Below are positions 2,569-58,210 of a DNA stretch of 64,000 nt, one piece after another. The stretch's first letter is position 1. Each line of letters opens with the position of its first letter. The DNA comes from Candidatus Poseidoniia archaeon (lineage in GTDB: Archaea; Thermoplasmatota; Poseidoniia; MGIII; CG-Epi1), in NCBI GenBank assembly GCA_030748895.1, contig JASMLC010000004.1, positions 62,001-126,000 of the forward strand. The letters are read 5' to 3'. Below the pieces are notes generated by a model. It had not been told where the DNA came from and searched no databases. It saw only the letters and a program-made list of their open reading frames with translations. The position numbers were made by a program, and so were the translations under genes.

Positions 2569-2690
2569 GGCGCGCGCGACTCCCCGCGCGATAAAAACCT
2601 TCGGCGTGCATGCAAGGCGGCCGGGGCGCGCCCGCTCCGGTGCGCCCCGGCCGCAAGCACCCTTAAATCCGGCACGGACGGGGGAAGCGC
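2569..2690. promoter_or_regulatory. Divergent promoter with a 13-bp perfect inverted repeat
   Basis: Spacer between ctaA (minus) and the copper-protein gene (plus). A perfect inverted repeat has arms 2617-2629 (GGCGGCCGGGGCGC core, with c2618 to c2629) and 2642-2654, separated by 12 nt. A TATA-like GGTTTTTAT at 2591-2599 (minus) serves ctaA, and TTAAAT at 2663-2668 (plus) lies about 25 bp before the ATG at 2691. The hairpin lies between the two boxes, where an operator controlling both directions could sit. That role is inference. Confidence 0.5.
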
Positions 2691-15651: not shown

Positions 15652-16263
15652 TCAGTAGCGTAACCTGCGCCGGCAGGCAATTCCCAGCAGCAGGGCAATG
15701 GTGAGGATTGTCGACAGGCCCGGGCTTTCCTCTTCGTAGCCACTGCCCTTTGACGTGTATTCAGCTTCATTCCAGTGGTCTTCTTCACTCGCTTCGCCGT
15801 CACCATTCACGGCGTTCCCTCTCAGCGTAAACGATACACGTAACGAATCATCAGCAGGCGCCACCCACTCAACTTTCCAGCTCCGCTGGTCGTTGCCCTC
15901 AGAGTTGTGGGTCAGCGAGCCATCCTCTTTTTCCTGTGTGTTCGAATCTACTGAAGAAAGGTCACCAGCGCTTGCCTCGAGGTTGAAGCCTCCCTGGTTC
16001 GTCGGATTAGACGTGACCTCGGGACCACCAGACAGCGCGACTGTCAGATTGTAGCGGACTCCAGCGTCATACGTAGCGGGCAGTCCCGAAAGCGTCACCA
16101 TGAGGTCACTGGCTGGCGAGCTACTGTGGCAGATGCATCCACTCTTTGAGTCATCAACCGAAATCCCACCACTGTAGGAACTAGCGTCCGGGAACGTGAT
16201 AACTGCCACAGCAATTATCAGGACCCAAGCTAGCACAGTGCCCCGGAGTGGGACTTCATCCAT
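15652..16263 (-). CDS. Exported choice-of-anchor-V-like protein with C-terminal sorting signal
   Basis: 203 residues. Signal helix (about 8-24), then GCICHSSSP (Cys43, Cys45, His46), followed by a beta domain resembling the Reeler or choice-of-anchor V family (GLPATYDAGVRYNLTVALSG). Related proteins usually carry CxxCH at this place; here only one residue separates the cysteines, so normal heme c attachment is unlikely. The C-terminus is SPGLS, a hydrophobic stretch and CRRRLRY, like an archaeosortase signal. The ATG at 16263 overlaps the coxA stop as TGATG, so it is made with the oxidase and may be an accessory surface protein. Confidence 0.65.
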   Translation of the reverse strand: MDEVPLRGTVLAWVLIIAVAVITFPDASSYSGGISVDDSKSGCICHSSSPASDLMVTLSGLPATYDAGVRYNLTVALSGGPEVTSNPTNQGGFNLEASAGDLSSVDSNTQEKEDGSLTHNSEGNDQRSWKVEWVAPADDSLRVSFTLRGNAVNGDGEASEEDHWNEAEYTSKGSGYEEESPGLSTILTIALLLGIACRRRLRY

Positions 16264-24025: not shown

Positions 24026-24070
24026 GTCCTCGCGCGCACGCCGGGCGCAGGGCGCGTTCGAGATAGCGCT

Positions 24071-24078
24071 TATATAAA
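24071..24078 (+). promoter_or_regulatory. TATA box of the oligosaccharyltransferase gene
   Basis: TATATAAA in GC-rich DNA. Archaeal spacing predicts transcription near 24100. This is downstream of the GTG at 24086 and so favours the ATG at 24134, with a leader of roughly 35 nt. Confidence 0.6.
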
Positions 24079-24133
24079 CCAGCGAGTGGCGCCCCCTCCG
24101 TCCTCCGTTCCGAAGGGCATCCAGGGACTCAAC

Positions 24134-27100: not shown

Positions 27101-30100
27101 GGGGCACCAATCCCCAACGCGACCGTCACGCTCCTCGATGAGGGCGGCACGCCGCACGACTCGGTCGTCACCGACGCGCTGGGGCGCTACAGCGTCGTCG
27201 CGACGGCAGGCAACCACACGCTGATGGTCTCGATGGGCGAGTTCGGCTCCGATATCGAGCGGGTGCACCTCACCTCCAACAACATCCTCGCCCGCGAGGT
27301 GGGCATCCTGATTTCGGAGGCACAGGCGACTCGCGCCACGCAGCCGGAAATCCGCATCGACATAGAGGTCGAGGCGGCCAGCCTCAGCGGCGAACTCTAC
27401 TGGGACGCCGGCGAACGCGAACCGATTGCCGGGATTCCAGTTACAGCAACCCAGACCGCGACGGGGCGCGAGTTCAGTGTCGACAGCGGCGCCGACGGCA
27501 GCTTCGCCTTCGACGCTATCGCGCCGGGCGAATACCGCGTCACGGCCGACCTGAACGGGCACGAGCTGGAGTTGGCGAACTACGAGGGCGTCGCCGGCCT
27601 GCAGGCAGACCAGTCGCTGGAGATTGACGGCGCAGTCGTCCCCGCCAGCGTGCTGGGGCTGATTGGCCCCGGCATCGGCTACATTCCCGGAATGGTCTCC
27701 TTCACGCTCGAGGACCACACCAACGGCACGCTGATGCAGCGCGAGGCGCTGACCAGCTTCCGCTTCGACAACCTGCTGCCGGGCAACTACACCCTGCGAC
27801 TCGACAACGACAACAAGTTCAGCGAGTGGGACAACAACACTGTCGCCTTCACCCTCGCCGCAGGCAAGGAGAGTTACCACAACACCACCATCACCGAGGG
27901 CACGCGCGTCAGCGGCGTCCTCAGCTGGCAGGGCGAACCGGTCGCCGACGAACATCTCTCAATCACCCACGTTGGCGGTCGGCACGCGACCGAAGTCACC
28001 AGCGACGCTAACGGCTACTTCACAACCATCCTCCCCGCGGGAACCTACGACCTCTACACGCTCCACTCCGACGCCAACGCGGCGTGGCTGGCGCGGATTG
28101 ACAGCGAGGCGCCGGGCGGCCTGCTCGACGCGGCGATGCAGCCAGCAGGCCGTATTACCGGCCTGCTCTTCAACGACCGTGACGGCGACGGAGAGTTCGA
28201 GGAGACGCAGGACGAAACTGTGGTGCGCGACGCCGAACTGCGCTTCGAATCGGTCAACGGCCGCGTCACCGTCCGCAGCGACAATCGCGGCGAATACGAC
28301 GTGGGGCTGCCGCCGGGCGACTACACTGCCTACGCCAACTACATCGACATGAACGACAAGCTGGCGGGCCTCAAGCGCATGCAACTCGACTACGGGACCC
28401 TGCAGAGCGACCTGCCGATGTCGCCCGGGCACGACCTGTTCGTCATCCTCATCGAGGAACACCTCGGCATGGAAATACCGATTTCGGGGCTCTTCACGCT
28501 CGACACCACCGCCGGGACAGTCTACACCTGGGGTGACGAGATGGCCACGATTGTTGCGCTGCCGTCCGGCAGCTACCAGCCCGCCATACTGCGCGGCGGC
28601 TACGAACCGCTGCCGCCCAACGACAAGTACGACCACTTCGCGATGGGCGAGCTCCAGTTCCAGCTGGTGCGCACACCAGTTACAGTCACGGGAACGGTCG
28701 TTTACGACGGCGTGCCGGTGCCCGGCGCGCAGCTCTCGTTCAGCCCGGCCGACCGCATCGGCGACTATTTCCTCAACTTTACCGCGGATGAGGATGGTGG
28801 CTTCTCGGTCGAGCTCCCGCCGCACGAATACGTCTACAGCTTCACGTCCGATCTGGCGGGCCAGCGCTACTTCGCACAGGGGTCGCTCACGCTGCCGCTC
28901 GCCGGTGCGCCGGTCAGCCTCGGTGAGGTCGCGACCCACCTGCTGCTGGAAGTGGGCGGCGGCGCGCTACATCAGGGCGAGCTGAAGGAGGGCGAAGTGC
29001 TCTTCACCAGTACTAGCGCGCCGTACGACGTAACGCGCATCTTTGCGACCCGCTTCAGCGGCTATCACGGCTGGCTGCCGCCCGGAGAATACTGGGTCAC
29101 CTTCGAGGGCGCGAGCGACAGCTCGCATTACAGCCACCTCTCGACGCTCGAACTGTCGGCACCGGCGCTGTTACACGACCTGTCGCTGGCGCAGGGGCAT
29201 TTCATCAACGGCGCGCTGATTTCAGAGCCAACCGGCGAACTGGTCGACGAAGACGTGACGCTGATGTTCATTTCCGGGCTGGGGACTGCTATTGCCCGCA
29301 GCAACGGCGTCGACGGAGATTACGGGCCGTTCGACCTGCAACCGGGCAGCTACCAGCTCGAAATCACCCTGCCGGGCTTCCAGCCCTACAGCGCGCCGGT
29401 CGAGGTTACCGGCAGCTCCTACTTCAACGTCGACATGATTCCCGAAACACTGCCGCTGACGCTCAACCTGACCTACCGCGACGCCGACGGAGTGCTGCAG
29501 CCCCTCGCCGGAGTCGCGGTGACCTTCAGCCGTGAGGGCGGCTGGTCGCAAACGTGGACCAGCGACGCCAACGGCACCATCCAGCTACCGGAGATGGTTC
29601 CGGCACGCTACGACGTCAGCGTCGACGACTACCTCGACGACGGTGCCGACCAGTTCTACCTCGAGCGCACACTGCGGCTGCGCCCCGGCGACGGTCACCA
29701 GTTCTTCGACTACCCCGCGACCTGGAAGGCGCGCTTCCAGGGCAGCGTCTTCTACGACCGCAACTTCGACGGAACCCCGGACGGCGACGAGCTGCTGGCG
29801 GGCGCGACGGTCGAAATCCGGCTGGGCACCGGCGGGTCTGTGCTGGAATCGCTGGAGACCGACGGCAGCGGCAGTTTCCTGATTTACCTCAAGCCGGACA
29901 ACTACCTGCTGCGCGCTTTCTCCGGGAGCGGTACTGCCTACACGCTCATCGAACCGCTGGACTTCAACGGCTCGCGCGACTACAACCTGTCGCTAGAGCG
30001 CGGAGTCGAGTACGAATGGCACTTCGTCGCCAGCGACGATGGCAGCCCGGTAGCCTTCGACGACGTGCGCTTCCGCGCCGGCGACGAGCTACTGCTGCAC

Positions 30101-31039
30101 CTCGAGCCCACGGACGGGACTATCACCACCATCCTGCCGCCGGGCACATACAACCTCACGGCACTGCTGGAAGTCCTCGACGGATCGCCAGACCGCATCT
30201 TCGTGCTCGACGAGGCTATCGCGCTGGCGCTGGCTGACGACGGCAGCGCGACCACGCTTGAACTGGAGCGGCAGCTGCTGCGGGGCGCCGATGTCGCCGT
30301 CGACCGGCTCACGGCGCCAGCCGCCGTCGGGCAGTCGGTGAACTTCACCTTCAACTTCACCGGGACCGGCCACCGCACCACCACCTTCCAGGTCGAGGTA
30401 ACAGGCGACGGGGATAACTGGACAGCCATTTTCCGGGCGCCTGATGTGAGCGTGGGGCCGGGCGAGAGCCGCGAACTAGTGCTCGATATCACGCCGGGTG
30501 ACGGCGTTATTCCCGGCGTCTACCGCAACTTCAACGTCCGTTTCTTCTGGGAAGGGCAGGAACTCTACGACGACGTCAGCTTCGATTTCGCGCTGGAAGT
30601 GACACCGACCGAGAGGCCGCCGCCCGACTTCAGCATCAGCGAAGTTACCTGGGCGCCCGACAACATCGAGCCCGGGACCGAGGTGACGCTACAGGCGACC
30701 GTCACCAACACCATTGCCGGCTCGGGCGAGCAGTTCCCACAGGTCGGCTTCTACCTTAACGACGAACTGATTGAGATGACCAGCGCCGCCTTCGACGGCG
30801 AGGGCGAGTCGGTGGTCGAGGCGACCTGGGTTGCCAGCGAAGGCATCCACAGCTTCCGCGTCGAGGTCGACCCGCAGGAACTCTTCAGCGAGCAGGACGA
30901 GACCAACAACGCGAAGCCGCTGGCGCTGACGGTCGAGGCGGCCGCGGAAGAGGCGGAGGGCTTCCCGTGGCTGATGGCTTTCGTGGTCGCGACGCTACTG
31001 CTGACTATCGCCTATTTCGCACTCAGGCTGCGGCGCTGA
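24134..31039 (+). CDS. aglB: STT3/AglB oligosaccharyltransferase fused to a long extracellular beta-domain chain
   Basis: 2301 residues from the ATG at 24134; archaeal AglB is usually 800-1000. Residues 1-600 are multi-spanning, beginning with a basic tail and TGGSDPYYHKRVVDY, the first extracellular loop with the catalytic Asp. The acceptor-sequon motif WWDYG is at about 704-708. From about 975 there follow many carboxypeptidase-regulatory or CNA-B-like units (for example GVVQTEEGAPIPNATVTLLD, and FYDRNFDGTPDGDELLAGATV). A CARDB-like domain (about 2160-2265) and a final helix with LRLRR end it. It transfers lipid-linked glycans to Asn-x-Ser/Thr. The giant extension may bind glycan, substrate or the cell wall. 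A short AT-rich patch at 26041-26110 interrupts the catalytic region. Confidence 0.9.
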   Translation: MARSTRRRRDGIRSRPLQRPSAAAAIAPAAPQKRQAESTPVHWPSLLAVLGIFLLALTIRSAWTLDAATEDGFKLTGGSDPYYHKRVVDYVMENGEHLVRDEMLNYPYGANNNRPPLFDWSIAITGLVLAPFFGDAAESTWWAMEVLPAVYGALIVFPVYAIGRAQFGREAGLLGALFIAVNSGHISHSTISLADHDSYVIFFGTCAFFFFMRALTEGSDARWVADWRSAESIKRGFTDFLQSERLALGYAGLAGMTLVLVALSWKGFPYLMVILVIYLISQMVINAFRRIDSLTTAMLGIVALSLPILLALPYYWSMGFISPWWDAPAYILLAFIGASVLLVPTRDLPWLLVLGGTVTVATLGYLLLTYVFTDLGFLLFSGQGYFVRTKLFDTIAEAQPPTFANFVFSFGLVSVWFGFFGLIWMAWQLFANRLWKKDYLLILIWAAVALYMAQSAIRFIFNATPVMALLSGWVTWLLIERAGFGDVLEAWRHYWGRHGPSILFLALGSLLVGFLTFFTVGPLVGFLVGILLLALMLSIGHMAADEDQYSLRDRLGGLRRAFEIKRPAVAFVVVGMLLLPNAFYGYDAAVPYEDKKDHDTGVYDFLRYSLLRPEEYQYDQRNNISLYPDGVSGMYNRTGVCNLATYTTKTDCESNSGRWSASPIWYMGITGPSFPASYWIDGLEWLAEQDTELPQEDRPGFISWWDYGFWAIDIGEHPTVADNFQFGYQMAGNFITAQSEEDALALLLYRLVEPEVDRESDRFPPAIREIMLTYYSEDNVTALEQIIANPGEQVPEGEDINKRNAAIRAGRPVLASASLTELADVIYDVEQATGHSIRYFGADTRLMPYSAENTGILYAPVTLADYELNDFVAVSLGLSNGQTVTYEEADELLRNDPTLTVTSQALDYKPRFLNSMFYRAFIGWSGPDIGREATDGIPGISGEIGADTSLLPLPGWGLKHFKLAYANNGLRILKYYDGATINGVVQTEEGAPIPNATVTLLDEGGTPHDSVVTDALGRYSVVATAGNHTLMVSMGEFGSDIERVHLTSNNILAREVGILISEAQATRATQPEIRIDIEVEAASLSGELYWDAGEREPIAGIPVTATQTATGREFSVDSGADGSFAFDAIAPGEYRVTADLNGHELELANYEGVAGLQADQSLEIDGAVVPASVLGLIGPGIGYIPGMVSFTLEDHTNGTLMQREALTSFRFDNLLPGNYTLRLDNDNKFSEWDNNTVAFTLAAGKESYHNTTITEGTRVSGVLSWQGEPVADEHLSITHVGGRHATEVTSDANGYFTTILPAGTYDLYTLHSDANAAWLARIDSEAPGGLLDAAMQPAGRITGLLFNDRDGDGEFEETQDETVVRDAELRFESVNGRVTVRSDNRGEYDVGLPPGDYTAYANYIDMNDKLAGLKRMQLDYGTLQSDLPMSPGHDLFVILIEEHLGMEIPISGLFTLDTTAGTVYTWGDEMATIVALPSGSYQPAILRGGYEPLPPNDKYDHFAMGELQFQLVRTPVTVTGTVVYDGVPVPGAQLSFSPADRIGDYFLNFTADEDGGFSVELPPHEYVYSFTSDLAGQRYFAQGSLTLPLAGAPVSLGEVATHLLLEVGGGALHQGELKEGEVLFTSTSAPYDVTRIFATRFSGYHGWLPPGEYWVTFEGASDSSHYSHLSTLELSAPALLHDLSLAQGHFINGALISEPTGELVDEDVTLMFISGLGTAIARSNGVDGDYGPFDLQPGSYQLEITLPGFQPYSAPVEVTGSSYFNVDMIPETLPLTLNLTYRDADGVLQPLAGVAVTFSREGGWSQTWTSDANGTIQLPEMVPARYDVSVDDYLDDGADQFYLERTLRLRPGDGHQFFDYPATWKARFQGSVFYDRNFDGTPDGDELLAGATVEIRLGTGGSVLESLETDGSGSFLIYLKPDNYLLRAFSGSGTAYTLIEPLDFNGSRDYNLSLERGVEYEWHFVASDDGSPVAFDDVRFRAGDELLLHLEPTDGTITTILPPGTYNLTALLEVLDGSPDRIFVLDEAIALALADDGSATTLELERQLLRGADVAVDRLTAPAAVGQSVNFTFNFTGTGHRTTTFQVEVTGDGDNWTAIFRAPDVSVGPGESRELVLDITPGDGVIPGVYRNFNVRFFWEGQELYDDVSFDFALEVTPTERPPPDFSISEVTWAPDNIEPGTEVTLQATVTNTIAGSGEQFPQVGFYLNDELIEMTSAAFDGEGESVVEATWVASEGIHSFRVEVDPQELFSEQDETNNAKPLALTVEAAAEEAEGFPWLMAFVVATLLLTIAYFALRLRR

Positions 31040-32135: not shown

Positions 32136-32596
32136 GCGGGACCATCCTGGCGGCGGTCTCGCCCGACGGGGTTATCGGCCGCGACGGTGGGATTCCATGG
32201 CATTATTCGGGCGACCTGCAGCGGTTCAAGCGGCTGACGCTTGGTCACACTATAATCATGGGCCGCCGCACCTGGGAGTCGCTGCCACGCAAGCCGCTCC
32301 CCGGGCGGCGCAACATCGTACTCACCTCGCGCCCGCTCGACGGGGTGGAGTGCTTTGCGTCGCTGGCGGAGGCGGTCGCGGCCGCCGACGGGGAGCTGTT
32401 CTTCATCGGCGGTGCGAGGCTCTATGCTGAGGCGCTGGGCTGCGCCGACTGCATCGACCTGGTGCTGGTCCCCGACGCAGTGCCGGTCGAGGGGAGCGTG
32501 CTCTTCCCGCGCATCCCCGACGGGTGGGTCGCCGGCGCGGTCGAGCCGCACCCCGACGAGCCGGCGCTGCGGTTGCAGCGCTGGCGGCGCGGCTGA
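32132..32596 (+). CDS. folA: Dihydrofolate reductase
   Basis: 154 residues, normal. Family blocks: LAAVSPDGVIGRDGGIPWHYSGDLQRFK (the acidic substrate-binding residue is replaced here by Tyr/Ser-Gly-Asp context), IIMGRRTWESLP and PLPGRRNIVLTSR for NADPH, then ELFFIGGARLYAEAL. It regenerates tetrahydrofolate consumed by ThyA. It starts with GTG overlapping the thyA stop by 4 bp. Confidence 0.95.
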   Translation: MSGTILAAVSPDGVIGRDGGIPWHYSGDLQRFKRLTLGHTIIMGRRTWESLPRKPLPGRRNIVLTSRPLDGVECFASLAEAVAAADGELFFIGGARLYAEALGCADCIDLVLVPDAVPVEGSVLFPRIPDGWVAGAVEPHPDEPALRLQRWRRG

Positions 32597-32636
32597 GGGC
32601 ATCTTTATACCGTGCGGGAATCCCCGGCCCGGAAGC

Positions 32637-35600
32637 ATGTCCCGCAAGTCCTTCACATTCCTGCTAGCGCTCCTGATGCTGCTGCCGCCCGTCCAGGGCG
32701 ACGAGAATGACCCTGACCTGACCATCGAGGATATCAGCTTCAGCGATGACTCGCCGGCAGGCGGCGATGAGATTATGATTACCGCTGAGGTTGCTAATGA
32801 TGGGGGGGCAACCGGCCTGCAGTCGGTGACGGCAAATGTTACCTTCTACTGGGACAACAACTCCATCGGGCAAGATATGGTCACTATTCCTGGCGGCCAG
32901 TCAGCCGACGCCAGCGTCGAGTGGACTGCCGTCGGTGGCACCCACAACATCACCGCCATTGTCGACGAAGAAAACGATGTGCAGGAATCTAACGAGGATA
33001 ACAATCAGCGCAGCGAATACATCACGGTCACCTACCCCTCAATCGCTGTGATTGACGACGATGGGGGAGAGAACAACGGTGGCACGAGGGTCGACGTAGA
33101 TGGATACTATACCGACGCGCTGGATTCACTAGAACTCACCTACGATCTGCTGCGCGTCGATAGCGGAGATGACGGACCTGACGCAGACACGCTCACCAAC
33201 TATGGACTGGTGATTTGGTTTGTCGGTTCGGATTTAAGCACCACCTTTACGCAAAACGATCAGGACGCGATGGCTCAGTTCCTCGACGATGGGGGGACTG
33301 CCTGGGTCACGGGACACGATATCCTCTGGGACTTGAACACCGCGACTGGCTCTCGCTCTGAGGGTGACTGGGAGTACGATTATCTCGGCGTAGGTTATGT
33401 CGACCACGACAATGGCACAGCTAATCCTGTTGGTGGTGTCCAGGATGACCCTGTCACTGACGGGGCGGAATATGACACCGACGACTCCCTATTCTTTGAC
33501 TATGGCGATGACCTCGCACCGCGCAGTGACTTCCACGGTATCTTCAACACTACCGATGACGATGGCACCCTCTGGTCAGCGCTGCGCACCGAGGAAGGCT
33601 ACGGGATGGTGTTCCTGGCGTTCGAGTTCGCCTACATCGCGAGTACTGACAACCGGACCGATCTGGTCGACAGGATTGTCGAATACCTGCTGGAGGAGCT
33701 GGAGCACGACGTCTCACTGAGCCGCTTCAACTCACCGCGCGACGGAGACACCATCGAGCCCGACGTTACGCAGGTCATCAACGTCACAGTCCGCAACCGC
33801 GGTAGCGAGGACGAGAGTAACGTGCAGGTGAATCTGGACATCGATTGTCGTAACAGCAGTGCTAACGACCACTCTGACTCGAAAACCATCTCGTCACTAC
33901 CCGCTGGCGCTACTACAACCGTTACCTTCGACTGGGACGTGCCGGAGGAGGAGGACTACGTCTATGATATCGAGGCAGAGGCGTATATTTCCAGTGACGA
34001 GAAACGCACCAATGACAAGCGCAGCATCACTGTTGATACCTATGTGCTGCACAACCTCGCCCTCGAGGCGGCGCGCGCGACGCCACGGCTTGGAGAGCCC
34101 GATGAAGAACGCACACTCTCGGTGAAGGTCGAGAACAGTGGCGACGTGACACTGACGCGCGATGTTCGCGGGCTGGTCTTCGAGGGCGACGAGGAGCTAT
34201 GGGATGGCGGCACGCAGGAAGTGACGCTGGGACCAGGCGAGAACACCACCCTCGAATGGGACTGGACTCCCAACGGCTACGGCACCTTCACCTTCCGCGC
34301 CCAGCTCGAGCAGGAAGACGAAGACTCGAATGACGACGTGGCGGCAGGTGAACTACGCGCGGTGAACATCGAGTTCCGCGACAGCTTCGAGTCGGGACGC
34401 AACGGCTGGAGCGACTATCGCCCCATTTCCAACGCCTGGCACCTGATAGACACTGACAATGACGAGAATCGCGAAGCATATAGTCCAACACACTCACTCT
34501 GGGTCGGTGACGAGGGCAAAGGCGATGGCGAATATGACGATAACTGGGACTACTCTGTCTTTACTGACCAAGATATAACGCTGGGCGCTGGTAGCGAGCT
34601 GGTAATCCAGCACTGGTATTCAATGGAATCCAGCTGGGATGGCGGCAACGTCCAGATTACCACGGATGGCGGTGAGAGCTGGACAGTTATCCATCCTAAT
34701 GGAGGCTACCCTGATGATGCGGTTGTAGGGCTGGACAATCAGCCTGGCTTCACTGGCTCCTCGGACGACTGGGAGGAAGCACGCTTTGACCTCGTCGATT
34801 TCTCGGGTGAGGACGTGCGCTTCCGCTTTCGCTTTGGGAGCGATAGCTCTGTCAATTCTTACGAAGGATGGTATCTGGACGACATCGAGGTAAGCGGCTC
34901 TGATGGTACCTTTAGTGACGATCTGGAAGATGGCGACGGAAACTGGAATTTCTCTGGTGAGAACAGCGAATGGTCGCTGGATGATGCACGTGCGGTCTCC
35001 GGCAGCCACGCCTGGCGACTGGGCAATCCGGAAACTGGCACCTACAGCCCCGGGCTGAACGACTCGCTCGAGTCGCCCACGATTGACCTGGGAGACGGCT
35101 CCGAGAAGGGGGTCGCGATTATGGCATGGTTCGCGGTCGACGGGCCGTATGACGAATTCTATCTGGAGATCAACGTTTCCGGCGAGTGGGAGATGCTTGA
35201 GAGTGGGCCGGGCGATGACGGTGACTATTCCAGCGACTACGACGAGGCGGATGGCGAGGGATGGCTCTACCTCGAGAGCGACCTTTCGGATTACAGCGAT
35301 GAAGTGACGCTGCGCCTTCGCTTCATCTCCGACACCTGGACACAACTGGAAGGACTCTATGTTGATGACTTTACCGTCTTCAGCCTGCCGCAGCTGCAGG
35401 ACGACGTCGGCGTGCGTGATATTGATGCACCCGACGAGGCGGGGCCGGGCGAGGCGGTCGACTTCAGCGGTGACGTCTACAACTTCGGCGCCAACGACCA
35501 GACGAACGTGGATGTGCGCGCGACGGTCACGCGCGACGGCGACGGCAGCGAAGTCTACAACCAGTCCCGCACGATTGCGCAGCTTGATTCAGGCGAGAAC

Positions 35601-38600
35601 GCGACGCTCGACTGGACCTGGCAGGGGGGCGATAACGGCAGCTACACCATCCGCGTCCAGAGCCTGCTCGACGACGATGAGCGGCCCGGCAACGACGCCT
35701 CGGAACAGGTCATCGACATTCGCGAATCGGCCTGGGCGGTCGCACTGGCAGTCGAGGAGGCGGTTAAGGACGTCCTCTCGGGCGAAGCGACCTTCTTCAA
35801 CTTCACCGCCACCAACGAGGGCGACGAGGGCGGCTACTACGACGTCGCCGCTGCCGGCAGCGGCGACGGCTGGTATGCGATTCCGCTTGAGGAAGTTATC
35901 TACATTTCGGCCGGTGGCTCGACCGACTTCACCGTCACGGTCATCGCGCCGACGCAGGAGCCGACCGGAGCAAGCCGTGACTTCACCGTCAGCGTCACCA
36001 GCCAGAACGATGCGGCGGCGCGCGACTCGGAGGAGATAACCGGCACCGCCGATTACCGCGAAGGCACGGACGGCGACAGCGTGCTGCTGGTTGATGCCAA
36101 CTTCGGGCATAACAATGGCTACAACCACTACTACCAGACCGACGAGATTGACCGACGTCTAAAGCTGGCTCTACAGGACTATTTTGGCGAGGGTGAGGCG
36201 CGGGGCTATGACGTCCATACACTCCCCTACGACAGCTCAGCCGGCGACTACGGCGAGCTGGACCCCTATCCGACGGTCGAACTGCTGACGCAGTACGACA
36301 TCGTGGTCTGGACACAGGGTGAGCATCACCAGCGTGACCTGGATGCATGGCGCGATACAATCGGTGGTTACCTCGATTCTGGCGACGGAGGACTCTGGCT
36401 GATTGGATCGAACTACCTGACTGCGCTCAACAGCAGCGATGGTTACCGGGAACCGGGAGACTTCGAGTACGACTATCTGATGGTCGAGCGGATTGACAAC
36501 GACCGTGAAACGCCCGACCCGCTGGTCGGCGCCAGCAACGATGAAGTATTCGACGGAGCTGAGTTCAGCAGTTCCGACCGCACCATCTACTCCAGCTCCT
36601 ACTCCGACTGGGTTATTCCACGTTCAATCGCAACCGGTGGTATCTACGCAGACGCAGGGAGCTGGTGGCACGTCTCCGACAACTCGGAAGCCACGGGTGA
36701 CCCGGAACGCGAGGCGAGCAGCCCGACACATGCCCTCTGGGTCGGTGACGGTGACAAGGACACCGGCGAGTACGATGATAACTGGGACGAGGTATTGCTG
36801 ACGCGCGATTCCTACGAACTGGGCGAGGACGGGCAGCTCAACTTCCAGAACTGGTACTCGACCGAGAACGGCTATGACGGAGGCAATGTGCAGATTTCGA
36901 CCGATGGCGGCGGGACCTGGGAGGTCATCAACCCGGCCGAGGAGTATTCAGATGACTCGGTGATTGGTCTAGATAACGAGCCTGGTTACACCGGCAGCTC
37001 GGACGGCTGGGTATCCGCCTCGTTTAGCCTTAGCGAATACGCAAATGAGGAGGTAACATTCAAGTTCCGCTTTGGAAGTGATAGTTCGGCCAGCAGCTAC
37101 GAGGGCTGGTACATTGACGATGTCGAGTTGCAGGACGCGAGTGGGGTCCTCTTCAGCGATGACCTCGAGTCGGGCGGCGATAACTGGGTTTTCGGCGCGT
37201 CGTCAGGGTACAACCTGACGCTGCGCTACGAAGGCGACTACCAGCTGATGCTGAGCCCCTTCACCTTCGCTTTCCTCGACGACGAACGCGAGCGCTCCGA
37301 TATCGTCGAGCGGGTGCTTGACTGGCTCTTCGCCGCCGCGGCGGCGCACGACGTCGGCACGCGGCTGCTGGACGTCCCGTCGGAGGGCGACGAGAACACG
37401 ACTGTCGAGTTCAGCAGCACTATCCGCAACTACGGCTCCGAGGACCAGTCCAGCTTCACCGTCCGCGCGCAGGCGCTGCTGGACGGCGACGTCATCTGGA
37501 GTGACACGCAGACGGTCGGCTTCCTCGCCGCGGGCGACGAGGTCGAGCTAACGTGGAGCTGGGAGGATGGCGGGCCGACCGGCGAATACGTCATTGGCGT
37601 CGAGACCGAGCTGGCGGGCGACGAGAATACGAATAACGACCGGCGCGAGGCGGATTTCGAGGCAGTCATGCTCCACGCCCCGGCGGTCTCGACGGTCAGC
37701 GCCAGCAAGGAGGGCGAGCCGGGGCAGACGCTGACATTCAAGGTAACCCTGCGCAACGACGCGACCGGCCGCGACAAGCTGAGCCTCTCGCTCTCGGGCA
37801 CGGCAGCCGACTGGGCTGAGTTGCAGATAAGCGCGGTCACGCTCGAATCGGACGATGAACGCGATATCGATATTGATGTTGAGCTGCCGGAGGACGCGGC
37901 GGATGGTGAATATAGCCTGATGGTAGAGGTCACGGCAGGTGACGTTACTGTCACGCAGGAGCTGACTGCAACCGTTACCGAGGACCCCACCGAATATGGC
38001 GTCACACTCGAGCTGGAACCACAGTTTATCGACCTGATTGCGGGGCAGTCTGCCGATTTCAGCGTAACCGTGGCCAATACCGGTGACGACAGTGATACCT
38101 TCGATCTGGAGGCGCTGGGCGACCGTCCCGAATGGGTCTCTTTCGCCGCCTCGCAGGTGAGTCTGGCAGCGGGCGAATCCATCGAGGTTGACGGCACGCT
38201 CACGGTTCCGGACGACGCACTCGATGACCGCTACGAACTCAGTGTGCGAGCAGTCTCACAGGGCGATGACAGCGCCAACGACGAGCAGGCCCTCACCGTT
38301 GACGTTATCGAGCGGCAGCACGACCTGCAGTTCCGGCTCGTGACAGGCGAGCTGACACGCGTGACCGTCGCGCCAGGCGAAACTGCCAGCTTCAACTTCT
38401 CGCTCGAGAACCGGGGCAATTCGGCTGATACATTCAGCATCAGCTTCGAGGACACGGCCGCCGACTGGGCGACGGCCGCGCCAGCCCAGGTCACGCTCGA
38501 GCCCGAAGACAAAACAAATATCACGGTGACCGTCACGGTTCCGACTGGCGCCGCGCTCGCCGAATACCGGGTGGGAATCATCGCTACGGCCGACGACGGC

Positions 38601-39179
38601 CAGACCGACCAGCGGCGGACGCTGACGCTCGAGGTCGAAGTGCCGGTCACCGAGACGCACTCACTCGAGCTCTGCTTCACGATGCCGTCAGGCGACTGCC
38701 TCTCGCAGCGAGCGCTGGAGGTTGCGGTCGAGCAGGGCGAAATCCAGACCGGCGCCTACGGCTTCCGCGTCACCAACAACGGCAATTCCGACGCTGAAAT
38801 CAGCCTCACACTGACGCTCCCGTCAGGGTCGACCGACTGGCAGGCGAGCTTCACCGACGGCGGTGGCAACCGCTGGTATGTGCGGCTCGACCCCGACACG
38901 GCCGACTACCCACTCCAGCTCATGCCCGGAGGGCAGATGGACTGGGGTGCACTGGTGATTAACAACCATAAGCTGGCCGCTGGCGGCAGCTACGCCTTCA
39001 CGCTAACTGCGGAAGTCGTTGGCCAGCCGGGAACCGCGCAGCAGCTGTCGGTGACCGTGACCGTGACCGAGCCGGACGCCCCGCCACCGACCGACGAGGA
39101 AGGCGGCGGACTGCCGGCGCCTTCGCTGCTGGCTGTGCTGCTGCTGCTCGGTGGTGTCGCCTTGCGGCGCCGCCGCTAG
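32637..39179 (+). CDS. Giant surface protein with CARDB, ThuA-like and jelly-roll repeats and sorting signal
   Basis: 2180 residues. Signal peptide 1-20 (FTFLLALLMLLPPVQG). Domains roughly in order: CARDB (25-125), ThuA/glutaminase-like Rossmann domain (127-330), two CARDB (330-570), two choice-of-anchor-J/MAM-like jelly rolls (575-905), CARDB (915-1010), alpha-galactosidase-NEW3-like (1010-1100), a second ThuA-like domain interrupted by another jelly roll (1140-1570), then CARDB and several NEW3-like beta units. The C-terminus is GLPAPS, a hydrophobic stretch and LRRRR, an archaeosortase-type signal. A TTTATA box at 32604-32609 and the ATG at 32637 fit a minimal leader. It converges on the archaeosortase locus and is the prime candidate substrate. 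Confidence 0.85.
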   Translation: MSRKSFTFLLALLMLLPPVQGDENDPDLTIEDISFSDDSPAGGDEIMITAEVANDGGATGLQSVTANVTFYWDNNSIGQDMVTIPGGQSADASVEWTAVGGTHNITAIVDEENDVQESNEDNNQRSEYITVTYPSIAVIDDDGGENNGGTRVDVDGYYTDALDSLELTYDLLRVDSGDDGPDADTLTNYGLVIWFVGSDLSTTFTQNDQDAMAQFLDDGGTAWVTGHDILWDLNTATGSRSEGDWEYDYLGVGYVDHDNGTANPVGGVQDDPVTDGAEYDTDDSLFFDYGDDLAPRSDFHGIFNTTDDDGTLWSALRTEEGYGMVFLAFEFAYIASTDNRTDLVDRIVEYLLEELEHDVSLSRFNSPRDGDTIEPDVTQVINVTVRNRGSEDESNVQVNLDIDCRNSSANDHSDSKTISSLPAGATTTVTFDWDVPEEEDYVYDIEAEAYISSDEKRTNDKRSITVDTYVLHNLALEAARATPRLGEPDEERTLSVKVENSGDVTLTRDVRGLVFEGDEELWDGGTQEVTLGPGENTTLEWDWTPNGYGTFTFRAQLEQEDEDSNDDVAAGELRAVNIEFRDSFESGRNGWSDYRPISNAWHLIDTDNDENREAYSPTHSLWVGDEGKGDGEYDDNWDYSVFTDQDITLGAGSELVIQHWYSMESSWDGGNVQITTDGGESWTVIHPNGGYPDDAVVGLDNQPGFTGSSDDWEEARFDLVDFSGEDVRFRFRFGSDSSVNSYEGWYLDDIEVSGSDGTFSDDLEDGDGNWNFSGENSEWSLDDARAVSGSHAWRLGNPETGTYSPGLNDSLESPTIDLGDGSEKGVAIMAWFAVDGPYDEFYLEINVSGEWEMLESGPGDDGDYSSDYDEADGEGWLYLESDLSDYSDEVTLRLRFISDTWTQLEGLYVDDFTVFSLPQLQDDVGVRDIDAPDEAGPGEAVDFSGDVYNFGANDQTNVDVRATVTRDGDGSEVYNQSRTIAQLDSGENATLDWTWQGGDNGSYTIRVQSLLDDDERPGNDASEQVIDIRESAWAVALAVEEAVKDVLSGEATFFNFTATNEGDEGGYYDVAAAGSGDGWYAIPLEEVIYISAGGSTDFTVTVIAPTQEPTGASRDFTVSVTSQNDAAARDSEEITGTADYREGTDGDSVLLVDANFGHNNGYNHYYQTDEIDRRLKLALQDYFGEGEARGYDVHTLPYDSSAGDYGELDPYPTVELLTQYDIVVWTQGEHHQRDLDAWRDTIGGYLDSGDGGLWLIGSNYLTALNSSDGYREPGDFEYDYLMVERIDNDRETPDPLVGASNDEVFDGAEFSSSDRTIYSSSYSDWVIPRSIATGGIYADAGSWWHVSDNSEATGDPEREASSPTHALWVGDGDKDTGEYDDNWDEVLLTRDSYELGEDGQLNFQNWYSTENGYDGGNVQISTDGGGTWEVINPAEEYSDDSVIGLDNEPGYTGSSDGWVSASFSLSEYANEEVTFKFRFGSDSSASSYEGWYIDDVELQDASGVLFSDDLESGGDNWVFGASSGYNLTLRYEGDYQLMLSPFTFAFLDDERERSDIVERVLDWLFAAAAAHDVGTRLLDVPSEGDENTTVEFSSTIRNYGSEDQSSFTVRAQALLDGDVIWSDTQTVGFLAAGDEVELTWSWEDGGPTGEYVIGVETELAGDENTNNDRREADFEAVMLHAPAVSTVSASKEGEPGQTLTFKVTLRNDATGRDKLSLSLSGTAADWAELQISAVTLESDDERDIDIDVELPEDAADGEYSLMVEVTAGDVTVTQELTATVTEDPTEYGVTLELEPQFIDLIAGQSADFSVTVANTGDDSDTFDLEALGDRPEWVSFAASQVSLAAGESIEVDGTLTVPDDALDDRYELSVRAVSQGDDSANDEQALTVDVIERQHDLQFRLVTGELTRVTVAPGETASFNFSLENRGNSADTFSISFEDTAADWATAAPAQVTLEPEDKTNITVTVTVPTGAALAEYRVGIIATADDGQTDQRRTLTLEVEVPVTETHSLELCFTMPSGDCLSQRALEVAVEQGEIQTGAYGFRVTNNGNSDAEISLTLTLPSGSTDWQASFTDGGGNRWYVRLDPDTADYPLQLMPGGQMDWGALVINNHKLAAGGSYAFTLTAEVVGQPGTAQQLSVTVTVTEPDAPPPTDEEGGGLPAPSLLAVLLLLGGVALRRRR

Positions 39180-39949
39180 TCGCGCCAGCCGGGGTCGTTG
39201 CGCAGCACCCACAGCGGGCTGCCGAAGAGGTAGCCAGCGTCGAGCAGCGCCGCTGCGGTCCAGAGCAATTCCCACGCCGCATGGTCGAGCCACGCCGCCA
39301 GCAGCGCGAACTGGAGCAGCAGCACCGCACCGAAAATCGGCAGCTGGTTCGGGCCGCGCGCCTTGTGGTAGGGCAGCGTCGAAACCATCGTGAACGCCGC
39401 CAGCCCGAGCAGCGCCGGCGGCCACGTCGCCCCGTCGCCGGTGAGCCAGGACCAGCGCAGGCAGACTGTCAGCACCAGCACCATCATCGCCGGCGTCGGC
39501 ATCCCCGAGAAGTGGCGCAGCTGCTCCTCGCGGTCGTGGGTGAAGCGCGCCAGCCGCAGCACCCCCAGCAGGCCCACCAGCAGCGCGCCCGCAAGTGCGA
39601 GCAGGTTCGGCAGGTCCACCCCGCCCGAGAGCGAGAGCGCCGGCCCGCGCGAGAGGTCGTAGTAGAGCGTGTAGACCAGCAGCGCCGGCGCGAGGCAGAA
39701 GCTGATGACGTCGGCCAGCGAGTCGAGCAACGGCCCGAAGCGGTGGCTCGACCCGTATTTGCGCACCAGCATCCCGTCGATGCTGTCGAAAAACGCCCCG
39801 ACGATGAGCAGCAGCATCCCGACCAGGATTGCGTCGCGCGTCCCGTCGAGGAAATAGGTAATCGCCAGCATCCCGCAGGCGGCGTTGGCGAGCGTCGCGA
39901 GGTCGCCGACTGAAATCCTGAACAGCGGCCGGAAGAGCCTGCGCAGCAT
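39176..39949 (-). CDS. pssA: CDP-alcohol phosphatidyltransferase, phosphatidylserine/archaetidylserine synthase type
   Basis: 257 residues from the ATG at 39949, multi-spanning. The CDP-OH-P motif is complete apart from Ala replaced by Val: Asp56, Asp59, Gly60, Arg64, Gly73, Asp77 and Asp81 (SIDGMLVRKY...RFGPLLDSLAD). The context DSLADVISFCLAPALL is typical of PssA. It would condense CDP-archaeol with serine. The start overlaps the stop of the archaeosortase-decarboxylase gene as TGATG. Together they would make archaetidylserine and then archaetidylethanolamine. The stop shares CTAG with the convergent surface-protein gene. Confidence 0.9.
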   Translation of the reverse strand: MLRRLFRPLFRISVGDLATLANAACGMLAITYFLDGTRDAILVGMLLLIVGAFFDSIDGMLVRKYGSSHRFGPLLDSLADVISFCLAPALLVYTLYYDLSRGPALSLSGGVDLPNLLALAGALLVGLLGVLRLARFTHDREEQLRHFSGMPTPAMMVLVLTVCLRWSWLTGDGATWPPALLGLAAFTMVSTLPYHKARGPNQLPIFGAVLLLQFALLAAWLDHAAWELLWTAAALLDAGYLFGSPLWVLRNDPGWRD

Positions 39950-41487
39950 CACGCCCCCGCCAGGCGCGCTACCGTCTGCCCCGCCCGCAGCTTCTGCCCC
40001 AGCCGCACGACCATCTCCGCCCCCAGCGGCAGTTCGAGGTCAACGCGCGAGCCGAGGTGGATGATGCCGATGCGCTCGCCCTTCGCCAGCTGCTGCCCCT
40101 CGGAAAGGTAGCTGGTGATGCGCCGCGCCAGCGCGCCGGCCACCTGCGTCACCGCCACCGGTCCGACAGTGGTCTCCAGTTCGGTGCGCACCTGCAGATT
40201 GCCGTCGGCGGCCGCGCTGTAGGCGGGGCTGAAGCCTGCCCCGGAGCGCTGCTGCGCGCTGACGCGGCCGGTAATCGGCGCGCGGTTGACGTGCACGTTG
40301 AAGGGCGACATGAAAATTGAGAGCCGTACGTGGTCGTCCCGCCTGTCAACCGAGAGCACCGTACCGTCGGCGGGACTGACGACGCCAACGCCGACCGGAC
40401 GCGGCGGGTCGCGGTGGAACCAGAGCAGACCACCGCCCAGCGCCAGTAGCGCCGCGGCCGCCCATGCCGCGGCATCGAGCGGCAGTTCCGACGGGGTGCC
40501 GGCAGCGGCGCCGAACGGCAGCAGTACCAGCCCGCCCACGAAGGCGATAGTAATCCATTCGGGCGTTCCGGCAGCGAAGGGCGGCGTGCGCATTCCCGCC
40601 GGTGACTCGCGCCACGGCAGGTCCATCACGCCGAGGATGGCGTCCTGCATCTCCGGCAGGTAGTGGAAGACGATATACGCCAGCGCGACCAGCGCGACGA
40701 GGCTGCCGCCCTTGCCAATCCAGGCGTGCGCGTAGTAGAATGTGTCATCGCCCCACACATGCTCGTAAGTTAGCCAGATTACGACTGCGTTGCGGATGAG
40801 ATTCAGTACGTAAATCGTCGGCACCGTCGCCAGGAAGGCGTAGACGCGCCGCTCTCGCGGCGCGCTGGTACAGAGCACCCCGCCAACGAATATTATCATC
40901 GATTGCAGCGCGGTGCACGCCAGCACGATGCTGACCGCAGGCGACATCGGATCGCGCCACGCCGCCTCGACGGGGACGCTCACTTCCTGGTGTGCTGAGC
41001 CGAGGCGGTACCAGCGCGAACCTTCGCCGTAGTCGAGTGGCCCGAGCGTTGTCGGAGCGCCTGCAATATCGAGCAGCCAGATCGACTGCTCCGCGACGAC
41101 CTGGATGAGCCAGCCCGCGAGGAACGGCACCCGCTCGACGAGGAAGTAGATGCCGCCAGCAACGACGGTCATCGCCACCAGCCAGCGCAGCGCCGGATAT
41201 TCAGCGCGCCACTGAATGGTGAGCCAGTGGTGGTACGCCAGATAGCCGAAGAACGGTAGCGCCATGGCGCAGAAGAGCGCATTGACCGGGTCGCGAATCA
41301 GGATGTAGTGCTCAACCTCGCTCCACCAGAAACCTCCCAGCGCCAGCCAGCCAACCATGCAGAGCCGGTGGCCTGCGGCGGCCGGGAGCCTGCGGCCCGC
41401 CATGCGGTGCGGCCCGCTTGAGAGCCGATAGCCTGCCGCGAGCAGCAGCAGCGACCCGATGGCGAGCACCTCGCTGGCTGGTATCAT
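39949..41487 (-). CDS. Archaeosortase fused to phosphatidylserine decarboxylase
   Basis: 512 residues from the ATG at 41487; positions below count an optional TTG codon before it. Residues 1-300 are multi-spanning, with the exosortase/archaeosortase catalytic set: Cys192 (VLACTALQSM), Arg233 (LNLIRNAVVI) and His255 (AHAWIGKGGS). After two more helices, about 365-513 is a small-type phosphatidylserine decarboxylase: PRPVGVGVVSPADGTV, FMSPFNVHVNRAPITG and IHLGSRVDLELP, with the predicted self-cleavage and pyruvoyl Ser at 481. Archaeosortase A cleaves C-terminally sorted proteins; in haloarchaea PssA and PssD are needed for lipid anchoring of its substrates. Here decarboxylase and sortase are one protein, coupled to pssA. 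Confidence 0.88.
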   Translation of the reverse strand: MIPASEVLAIGSLLLLAAGYRLSSGPHRMAGRRLPAAAGHRLCMVGWLALGGFWWSEVEHYILIRDPVNALFCAMALPFFGYLAYHHWLTIQWRAEYPALRWLVAMTVVAGGIYFLVERVPFLAGWLIQVVAEQSIWLLDIAGAPTTLGPLDYGEGSRWYRLGSAHQEVSVPVEAAWRDPMSPAVSIVLACTALQSMIIFVGGVLCTSAPRERRVYAFLATVPTIYVLNLIRNAVVIWLTYEHVWGDDTFYYAHAWIGKGGSLVALVALAYIVFHYLPEMQDAILGVMDLPWRESPAGMRTPPFAAGTPEWITIAFVGGLVLLPFGAAAGTPSELPLDAAAWAAAALLALGGGLLWFHRDPPRPVGVGVVSPADGTVLSVDRRDDHVRLSIFMSPFNVHVNRAPITGRVSAQQRSGAGFSPAYSAAADGNLQVRTELETTVGPVAVTQVAGALARRITSYLSEGQQLAKGERIGIIHLGSRVDLELPLGAEMVVRLGQKLRAGQTVARLAGA

Positions 41488-41523
41488 CAACCTGCGCGAC
41501 CCCGCGCCGCTAAAAAAACCTCT

Positions 41524-42249
41524 TCAGCCGAAATGGGCGCACGCCGCCGCATATGATTCGGGGTCACCGATATCGAACCAGGTCCCACTATACGCGATGC
41601 CGCGCACCGTCGCGCGACCGATGCGCCACGGCAGGAAATGGCCTAGCGCGTCACGCTCGCCGCCCGCCGCGAGGTAGGCGGCGAGCGCACACACCCCGCC
41701 GGGCGAGAGCAGCCAGCAGGCGGTCGCCGCCAGCGTCGAGCGCGGCTCCGCCGGCTTCTCGACGAAATCAACTATTATGCCATCCTCGAGCGTCGCGATG
41801 CCGTAGAGCTGCGCCAGCCCGGTATCGCCAACGTCGTAGAGCCCGATAACGTCGTCGCCCGTGCTTGCGTGCAACGCAGTCATGCGGGCGAGATCGAAGT
41901 CGAAAAGGTTGTCGCCGCCGACGATGAAGAGCGGTCCCGCCAGACGATGCTGTGCCACCAGCTGCCCCAGCGCGCCGAGGGCGCCGGGCTTCTCGCCTTC
42001 GGCGCGCGCCTGCTCGACCGCCAATTCCAGTATCAGCGGGCCGTCGTAGCTGGCGATGAACACGTCAAACTGGCTGGCAAAAGCGGCGTTGACCGCCAGC
42101 AGCACGCGGTCGGGCGCAACTGCCTCGAGCGAGCGCAGGACGTGCGCCAGTAGCGGCTCGCCGGCGACTGGGAGCAACTGCTTTGGAGTGTGGCGCACCA
42201 GCTCCCCCATACGGCGCGCGAAGCCGCCCGCCAGGACGATGGCGTCCAT
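41524..42249 (-). CDS. Sugar-1-phosphate nucleotidyltransferase
   Basis: 241 residues, single NTP-transferase domain. The N-terminus AIVLAGGFARRMGELVRHTPKQLLPVAGEPLL is the nucleotide-binding signature with the catalytic Lys in PKQLLP. GGDNLFDFDL supplies the metal Asp, and VEKP and GTWFDIGDPESYAAA fit glucose-1-phosphate thymidylyl- or uridylyltransferases. It lacks the C-terminal hexapeptide repeats of bifunctional forms. It probably activates a sugar for surface glycans; the sugar cannot be told. Its ATG overlaps the coiled-coil gene's stop by 1 bp. Confidence 0.88.
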   Translation of the reverse strand: MDAIVLAGGFARRMGELVRHTPKQLLPVAGEPLLAHVLRSLEAVAPDRVLLAVNAAFASQFDVFIASYDGPLILELAVEQARAEGEKPGALGALGQLVAQHRLAGPLFIVGGDNLFDFDLARMTALHASTGDDVIGLYDVGDTGLAQLYGIATLEDGIIVDFVEKPAEPRSTLAATACWLLSPGGVCALAAYLAAGGERDALGHFLPWRIGRATVRGIAYSGTWFDIGDPESYAAACAHFG

Positions 42250-51022: not shown

Positions 51023-54000
51023 TTATGCGTCTTCCCGGCGGCGGAGGGCTACACCCAGGCCAGCCAGGAGGGATGCCATGCTCAGTCCGAAGAGGGTCAA
51101 CGCGAACGACGGAGTCGTATCGGACGCTGCCACAATCGAGACGGTGCCGCTGATGACGTTGTCGTCCTGCTGATTCAGGAACTCGTCATGGTGAGTGCGG
51201 CCGTCCGCGATGTCCTCGGTCTCGAGCGTCGGGTTGATCTGGGCATAGACGGTCACGTCCCAGTACTCGCCGCCGTTACCCTTCTCTGCTCCCTTCTCAG
51301 GAATGAAGGGGTCGACCCAGGTTATTGAAGCGGTGCTGTAGGTCAGGACCTTGTTGTCCACCTTCTTCTGCTCAGTCAGCACAGCCGTGGGCGCCATGCG
51401 GGCAATTTCGGTGTCGCCGATGCGGGTAACCCGCTTCATGCCGTCCGGGAAGGAGACCATCTTGCCGCCCTTGGGGTCGTAGACGTAGAAGACGACCAGC
51501 ACATCCTGTGCGTAGTTGCCGTCGTTCTCGGCCGTGACCCGGATAGAGACGCCGTTGTCGTCGCCCTCGAGGACCGCAATGCGGTCAACCGAGATGCCAG
51601 TCAGTGAGAACTGAGGCGGCCGGATGAAGAGCGACGCTGAGAGAGGCTCGTCCATATCCGCGTTGTTCGCGGTGTCCTTGCCGTTCAGCTTGATGTCGAA
51701 CTCCCGGTTACCGGCAGGTTCGCCAGTGTCCCAGTCGAAGTCGGGGGCCCAGATAGAGAGGGTGATGGTCACCTGCTGGTCAGCATCCAGCGGGATGCTG
51801 GTGGTTCCGTCTATCGAGGAAGTGGTCACCGGTGTTCCAGAGCTGGAGTCGGTCACCGCCCGGTAGATGGACCAGTCAGTGGTGTCGTATGCACTGCCTC
51901 CCGCCACGAGTGCCGGAGAGATTTCCAGCACGTTGGCAAGGGTTCCGATGTTGCGCGCGGTGTAGACGACATCCACACCCAGCGAGGGGTAGATTTCGTA
52001 CACACGCGTGTCGTGGTCGACCTTGTCCCAGAAGATACCGTGGTCGAGCGTACGGACCACCTTGACGCCACCAATGGAGGCGCTACCCAGCGGACCCTTC
52101 GCCTGGAAGACAAAGGAGTACTGGTTATCTGGTGCAGGGTCGTAGTCCATCCCGTTCAGGCCCAGCTTGCTGGTGTCGAGGTGGATGTAGTAGGGATTCC
52201 AACCGCCCGAGTCACCCGCCAGCGAGCCGCCGACGGCGCTGTGGTCGCTTCCATCGACTATCGTGAAGCCGTTGGGTGACCAGAGTGCAACGGTCCTGCC
52301 GCTGTCGAAGGAGTGACCCTTCTGCTGTGCGAAGACCATGATCTCGTTGCCGGCGCTCATGTCGTAGTCGGCCCAGAACATGAGGTAGCTGTCATCGGTC
52401 CAGAGTGGCACATAGTTGGTACGCGCCTGCTCGGTCGCGACTGCCGCCGCGACGACCACGATTGTGCCAGCCATCATCGTGTGGAAGCCACAGTAGTAGG
52501 TGAAAGTCCCGACTTCGCTGAAGGTCAGCGAAGCACTATCGCCTGCGGCGAGCGTGATTTCAGGCCAGTCACCATCAGTGGAGGTCACTGTGTGGGTAAT
52601 GGTGTCGTCGTTGGTCCAGGTGATGGTAGTTCCGAGCAAGGCCTCAACATAGCCGGGGCTGTAGCCGCCGACCTGGCCAACGATTGAGATGCCCATGTCA
52701 TCAGTAACCACGTCGGTTTCGTCCCAGCTTACCGAGAGAGCACCGTCGCCGACTGAGGCAGGTTCGTCTGCCACGTCAACCCAGTCCTCTCCGCCGGTCA
52801 GCAGCGGGGTGCCGAGATTCTGCTCGGTACCTACCAGCAGCATGTGGCTGGCACCGTTGTTCGTCGCGAACAGGTCCTTCAGCGTGTCGCTCGTACCGGG
52901 TGTGGCCAGTTTGACACCGATGGTGTACATACCGGGCGTAGAGATACCAGGGAAGCTTATGCTGAAAGTGCCAGTCTCACTAGCCATCGGCAAGTTGCTG
53001 ATGGAGTAGGAACTGTCACTCCAGACGGTGTTCCCGTCAGAGTCTATCGCGTAGGCGTAGATGTCAGCGCTGCTGATTGGACCGCCAGTGCCAAGGTCGC
53101 CCATGCCCACGTTCTTGAAGCTCGTGGTGATGGTTGAACCCTCGCCCAGCTCCAGCTTGTAGGGCAGGCTGGAGGAGGTCTGCTCGATGTCGAAACCGAG
53201 AGCGTAGATACCAACCTCGTCAACAAACCAGGCCGGATCCCAGTCGGGGTAAGATCCACCCAAATGGAAGCTGACTGACATGTCGTCCATTCCCGTACCG
53301 GTGAAGGTGTCGAGTCGCGCCTGCGACTCAGTCCAACCTCCCGAAGAAGAGACGAACGCCGGCAGGTTATTCAGCGGGTTGCCGTAGTAGAGATAGTTGT
53401 AGATCGTGCCGCCATACAGATTGCCCTGGGTTGGTGTCACAATGCTCCGGGTGGAGCTGGAACCGGATGGGCCGGCGGTCGATATGTCAACGTTGCCACC
53501 TTCGTAATAGTACGCGGCAAAGGCGCTGACGGAGGCGTAGAATGCATACCGGTGCTTGAACACCATCTTGGACGAGGTCGCCTGCGACAGATCTATCGAG
53601 GGCGAGTTAAGCCGTGCGTCGTCACCGTTGTAGGCTGTGCCGAAGGTATCGTCGCCAAGACCCCAAGAGGCTGCGCCAGCATAGACCTCAGACGTCTGAG
53701 TATGCCAGTCTGCTGTGCCCATCGCAAGGGTGGTTGACCAGCCGTCCGCGTAGAGGTCGCCTGAGCCACCGTTGACACAGCCTGCACACGTCATCTCAGC
53801 TTCAGCGTCGGTGTATGCCACGGTGAACATGGTCTCACGCGATATATCGCGCTTGTTATCACCGGAGAACTCGTCCACTGCAACGTTACCGTCCTCATCA
53901 AGGTAGCCGTCAATCCAAGCCTCTACCCGCACCTTGTACTGGCCGGGGACACTGAAATGGTAGTTCCAGTTGATATCCTTGGACTCGCCACTGGCGAATG

Positions 54001-58126: not shown

Positions 58127-58210
58127 ATGACACACCTTGGTTGAGTCCTTGTCTCAGCGGGTGGGATACCCACTGAAGGGTTCCCATCATGCTGCGCGGT
58201 TCATATAAAG
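58127..58210 (-). promoter_or_regulatory. Promoter and leader of the giant surface protein
   Basis: CTTTATATGA (minus, 58201-58210) is a good TATA box about 80 bp before the ATG, predicting a leader of about 50 nt, unusually long here. The leader contains GTGGG-tat-CCCAC (58161-58173), a small perfect hairpin that could affect translation or stability. No riboswitch is recognised. Confidence 0.45.

Follow-up and report, generated by a model that had tools for sequence, protein, structure and literature searches.

A reading frame joining archaeosortase A to a phosphatidylserine decarboxylase domain in Marine Group III archaea

In this study we analysed a 64,000 nucleotide (nt) long stretch of DNA from a Candidatus Poseidoniia archaeon (contig JASMLC010000004.1, positions 62,001 to 126,000; hereafter the window), in which a single reading frame encodes an archaeosortase A (ArtA) domain followed by a short phosphatidylserine decarboxylase (PSD) domain. 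The frame is directly followed by pssA, which likely encodes an archaetidylserine synthase. With this fusion a known pathway takes on a new architecture, which is conserved and recurrent. As it has been retained in most of Marine Group III and evolved on at least two occasions, the fusion is independent evidence for a place of the decarboxylase in the pathway by which surface proteins are anchored.

The known pathway was described for Haloferax volcanii, which uses the same three enzyme families, ArtA, PssA and PssD. There, ArtA-dependent cleavage is blocked when pssA or pssD is mutated, and the S-layer protein of the pssA mutant lacks its covalent lipid (PMC7157517). This confirms the link between these enzymes that a first-pass annotation of the window had drawn. 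While the three genes are separate and unlinked in H. volcanii, ArtA and PSD form one protein here. In Methanosarcina artA, pssA and pssD are clustered as separate genes, and no ArtA-PssD fusion was found in the accessible part of the same source. Archaetidylethanolamine (AE) was proposed as the nucleophile already in 2020, with the gene clustering in Methanosarcina as a clue (PMC7157517, Fig. 5A), such that the corresponding idea in the annotation is not new. In the literature searched, which had limited coverage, we found no report of an ArtA-PSD fusion.

One conserved frame with two sets of catalytic residues

The minus-strand frame 41490..39949 is uninterrupted and comprises 513 codons from a TTG start codon, with an ATG adjacent to it. 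Residue numbers in the following are counted from the TTG; counted from the ATG each is one lower. In profile searches the frame scored 145.3 bits against the archaeosortase A model TIGR04125, i.e. about twice the curated cut-off of 75, and 64 bits against the generic exosortase signature TIGR04178 (cut-off 23). With the decarboxylase family PF02666 it reached 114.9 bits, which is about fivefold over the curated cut-off of 22. Given that both curated family cut-offs are passed within one uninterrupted and conserved frame, the fusion claimed in the annotation is borne out.

The predicted catalytic residues are present in both halves. Cys192, Arg233 and His255 in the ArtA domain as well as Asp375, His400, Gly480 and Ser481 in the decarboxylase were invariant among nine fusion proteins from three lineages, the latter four providing the Asp-His-Ser set and the Gly-Ser self-cleavage site of PSD enzymes. 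For Haloferax ArtA, published mutagenesis identified Cys173, Arg214 and Arg253 as catalytic. The Cys-Arg spacing is 41 in both proteins, and with His255 the fusion also has an invariant third residue of basic type, which we do not equate with Haloferax Arg253. The annotation had named Cys192, Arg233, His255 and Ser481 correctly in the TTG numbering; from its own start coordinate, 41487, each would be one lower. It was also right in placing 33 residues (481-513) C-terminal of the predicted self-cleavage site, but their release would not normally be expected, since known PSDs keep the small subunit bound after self-cleavage.

The source genome has a size of 1.41 Mb and is 97% complete. Its closest named relatives belong to Marine Group III (class Poseidoniia, Thermoplasmatota) and include CG-Epi1 and AG-343 isolates. 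Both domains were found in one frame of 524-587 amino acids in 16 of the 21 sampled genomes of this family. In the other five, one frame was broken by a run of N, three were apparently cut by contig ends, and one genome of the CG-Bathy1 type (G400) carried a stand-alone artA. An apparently half-deleted PSD (G078, locus L085) turned out to be a scaffold run of N. The fusion was furthermore present at two loci, L077 and L080, which by their record titles belong to AG-series isolates and are not labelled as metagenome-assembled genomes; from the isolate names we read them as single-cell genomes. An assembly or sequencing artefact is ruled out by the whole frame in 16 genomes together with these two loci.

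The frame is 93% identical in genome G331 and persists in Marine Group III proteins of approximately 57% identity, a pattern that neither chance nor a sequencing error would produce. We looked for an in-frame stop or a frameshift that would separate the domains, as well as for a pattern in which relatives always carry separate genes, and found neither. Non-synonymous divergence (dN) was 0.02-0.09 for the ArtA domain and 0.04-0.18 for the PSD domain, compared to a synonymous divergence (dS) of 0.4-1.4; for the linker dN was also below dS. From these sequence comparisons both domains are under purifying selection.

Recurrence of the fusion and its operon ancestry

Two further fusions were found in Thermoplasmatota: one at locus L028 (genome G011) and one at loci L016 and L025, which have the named counterparts L090 and L089. 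In the ArtA tree a single clade of all fused rows was rejected by the approximately unbiased test (p = 9e-5), as was a clade of Marine Group III and L028 (p = 0.0011). A single event for L028 and L089/L090 was compatible with the tree (p = 0.497). A common origin of all fusions is thus ruled out by the ArtA tree, the PSD tree being too weak to decide, and at least two, probably three, separate fusion events took place in the phylum. The L028 junction differs from that of the source fusion: the hairpin between the domains is absent, and in the AlphaFold2 model the PSD is joined to the last ArtA helices by a low-confidence joint at residues 261-263. Two other candidates were rejected as fusions: the frames in G001 and G077 measured 689 and 731 amino acids, but artA and psd each have a stop-to-stop frame of their own there.

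Where artA and psd are unfused neighbours, psd lies immediately 3' of artA on the same strand (33 of 33 loci), most commonly with a 4-nt overlap, and pssA lies 3' of psd wherever both were detected. The artA-psd-pssA operons of other Thermoplasmatota thus have the gene set and order seen here, frequently with 4-nt overlaps, but consist of separate reading frames except in Marine Group III, L028 and L089/L090. Judging from this gene order, the adjacent artA-psd operon is the obvious candidate for the state before fusion. Since fusions recur and psd directly follows artA in every unfused neighbouring pair, the functional link between ArtA and PSD is strong, and the Haloferax genetics had supported it before. 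As a side observation, an incomplete second psd-pssA fragment lies at the end of a contig in genome G285 (C2:48782-50091) and may stem from a second strain in that bin.

CG-Bathy1 branches as the sister group of the fused clade in the ArtA tree, with a support of 91. At a CG-Bathy1 locus (L086) the upstream genes match, and the stand-alone artA terminates where the ArtA domain ends. With this branching the fusion may have occurred after the split of CG-Bathy1, or it may have been lost there; both are possible. In Poseidoniaceae we mostly observed a longer PSD (frames of approximately 280-300 amino acids) at a distance from artA.

The operon data also bear on an alternative explanation, in which overlapping operon genes were fused by loss of a stop codon for convenience. 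The PSD would then make bulk AE for the membrane and have no direct role in anchoring, and the fusion would be tolerated with a fixed stoichiometry as its only effect. Starting from the 4-nt overlap a small change suffices for such a fusion, and the fused PSD, being the only one found in the source genome, must supply all AE. The persistence of ArtA without PSD in CG-Bathy1 and Thalassarchaeaceae fits this picture as well. However, the frame was retained across the whole fusion clade of Marine Group III, and at least one more similar fusion formed with a different junction. A functional link is also favoured by the synteny of artA, psd and pssA, both in the phylum and in Methanosarcina, together with the Haloferax mutant phenotypes (PMC7157517). 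We consider this explanation unlikely on balance, while it is the strongest of the alternatives.

Predicted topology and proposed role in anchoring

The relative position of the two active sites constrains how the halves may cooperate. An AlphaFold2 model of the fusion was obtained with a predicted local distance difference test score of 94.1 and a predicted template modelling score (pTM) of 0.87. Loops 19-50 and 204-223 are positively charged, while loops 58-69, 133-190 and 235-258 are acidic. Loop charge and predicted helices suggest that Cys192, Arg233 and His255 face the outside of the membrane, in agreement with the ArtA active site being listed as extracellular (PMC9263693). For this assignment one of the predicted helices 99-120 and 122-142 must not be membrane-spanning; the position of the two sites relative to each other is independent of that. 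Following His255 the predicted chain crosses the membrane once more and continues into the hairpin and then the PSD. L028 lacks the hairpin, and the sidedness is unchanged in both AlphaFold2 models. The PSD is thus predicted at the cytoplasmic face, opposite to the Cys-Arg-His site.

Sequence searches of the PDB with the fusion gave no match. A fold search matched the PSD part only, and weakly; the best entry was 8x4q (E = 1.8e-3, 14% identity). This is PsiD, a pyruvoyl-family L-tryptophan decarboxylase that structurally resembles the decarboxylase part of the fusion, but acts on an amino acid.

With the sites on opposite faces, the PSD would produce AE on the inner leaflet, and ArtA could use this lipid only after it has flipped. 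The annotation had instead proposed a lipid cavity common to both sites, by way of which the C-terminal domain passes AE directly to the N-terminal transpeptidase. The physical fusion and the confident single-chain model (pTM 0.87) speak for such channelling. In both AlphaFold2 models, however, the sites lie on opposite faces, and the ArtA site is listed as extracellular (PMC9263693), which renders a direct hand-over very improbable. Co-localisation and a fixed stoichiometry are better supported.

Our preferred reading, to which we assign a probability of roughly 0.6, is a bifunctional membrane protein whose ArtA half anchors proteins via Cys192 and whose PSD half makes AE, with a separate flipping step in between. 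The N-terminal ArtA would cut the PGF-type C-terminal tails of exported proteins at the outer face via Cys192 and transfer the protein to a lipid. The cytoplasmic PSD would convert archaetidylserine, supplied by PssA, into AE, which most likely would be moved to the outer leaflet in a flipping step of its own. There its amine would release the protein from Cys192, yielding a lipid-anchored protein. Compared to two adjacent genes, the fusion would fix a 1:1 ratio and co-localise AE synthesis with the enzyme that uses it. What we infer are the two enzymatic activities, the identity of the attached lipid as AE and the flip. Archaetidylserine is assigned as probable PSD substrate from context. A more ambitious version, in which the fused PSD feeds its own sortase in preference to bulk AE and the membrane domain itself moves the lipid across the bilayer as a self-contained anchoring machine, seems highly doubtful to us.

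Alternatively, the PSD half could mainly be a structural or regulatory partner: ArtA would need the bound PSD protein, not its lipid product, in order to assemble or to be positioned at midcell. The L028 PSD, which has no membrane hairpin of its own and hangs on ArtA, would suit such a role. As expected for an active enzyme, though, the catalytic PSD residues are conserved in all fusions and the domain is under purifying selection, and we regard a mainly structural role as scarcely probable.

Several observations weigh against the bifunctional reading. The fusion by itself would not bring AE to ArtA, given the predicted opposite faces. The fused PSD stays below the curated cut-offs of the archaetidylserine decarboxylase models (TIGR00164, 132.7 versus 230; NF038088, 152.5 versus 240), and pssA below those of the archaetidylserine synthase models (TIGR04217, 88.6 versus 200; NF038087, 98.9 versus 240). 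In profile searches of G400 (79% complete) we found no PSD and only a marginal pssA match. In most sampled Thalassarchaeaceae, a name that we infer for family f3 of our genome set, ArtA is present and PSD was not found; the genomes of this family that were searched for pssA mostly gave no clear match. PGF-CTERM proteins over the curated cut-off occur nevertheless in G400 and in the one f3 genome that was checked (G033). As both groups keep ArtA without PSD and the genomes checked keep such proteins, AE is not strictly needed by ArtA in this class, and ArtA can evidently work with another lipid or acceptor there. This weakens the role of AE as nucleophile and makes CG-Bathy1 and Thalassarchaeaceae natural counter-cases, with ArtA retained and the decarboxylase missing. 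Nor are we aware of an anchor lipid that has been identified in a member of the Thermoplasmatota. The fusion offers a single polypeptide for testing the AE-nucleophile model.

Neighbouring genes and candidate substrates

The features of the fusion and its neighbourhood are collected in Table 1. The pssA product scored 51.5 bits with PF01066 (cut-off 22). Its coupling to the fusion, as annotated, is seen in the overlap with the fusion stop codon, and the two are probably co-translated. Profile searches of the source genome returned one match each for PSD, ArtA and pssA.

Table 1. Coordinates of the fusion gene, its domains and predicted catalytic codons, and of adjacent genes in the window.
Feature	Position	Strand	Details
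artA::psd fusion gene	39949..41487	-	512 amino acids from ATG 41487; 513 from TTG 41490
Archaeosortase A domain	40618..41373	-	TIGR04125; residues 40-291
Two-helix membrane hairpin between domains	40417..40563	-	residues 310-358; predicted helices 310-328 and 338-358 (hydropathy)
Short pyruvoyl-type phosphatidylserine/archaetidylserine decarboxylase domain	39967..40425	-	residues 356-508; PF02666; NF003683, 1.1e-55
Cys192 codon, predicted ArtA nucleophile	40915..40917	-	C in 48/48 alignment rows with a residue in the column
Arg233 codon	40792..40794	-	R in 45/45 alignment rows with a residue
His255 codon	40726..40728	-	H in 45/45 alignment rows with a residue
Ser481 codon in Gly-Ser, predicted self-cleavage site and pyruvoyl precursor	40048..40050	-	
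pssA, CDP-alcohol phosphatidyltransferase, likely archaetidylserine synthase	39176..39952	-	PF01066; start overlaps fusion stop by 4 nt
Nucleotidyltransferase-like gene	41524..42249	-	directly upstream of fusion; similar gene directly upstream of artA in CG-Bathy1 (L086)
Large surface protein, CARDB and other domains	32355..39179	+	convergent with fusion operon; C-terminal candidate sorting signal ..GGGLPAPSLLAVLLLLGGVALRRRR

Candidate substrates were sought in a survey of protein tails that covered part of the source genome. No protein in this survey exceeded the cut-off of the PGF-CTERM model TIGR04126; other Marine Group III genomes have matches over it. Many of the surveyed tails consist of an acidic spacer, a motif of the form (L/I)P-G/A-F/P-G/S (LPGFG, IPGPG or LPAPS), a hydrophobic stretch and RRRR, and the large surface protein convergent with the fusion operon carries one of them. 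In this genome PAPS seems to be a frequent variant of PGF. In the window, tails with a hydrophobic stretch and a basic cluster, e.g. ..LPGPGVVLAGAVLVSAAMRRRR, are found at 2667-4367 (+), 15652-16266 (-), 24026-31039 (+), 51023-58153 (-) and 32355-39179 (+). Three of these proteins are very large (> 2200 amino acids), and from their sequences all five are candidate sortase substrates.

The fusion does not have to process all of these tails, because the source genome encodes a second archaeosortase of another subfamily. This exosortase/archaeosortase family protein lies outside the window (contig C4, approximately 13069-13875 (-); L214:4070-4876 (-), with a neighbour at L214:5363-6337 (-)). It scored 30.8 bits with TIGR04178 (cut-off 23), with no specific subfamily over its cut-off. 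Its gene adjoins a Nudix-like gene and a gene for a choice-of-anchor T protein ending in ..VPGFESAFSLLALAFVAITLARVKRDDE, and a similar trio is present in G400 (L215). The second sortase and the choice-of-anchor T protein may form a dedicated sortase-substrate pair.
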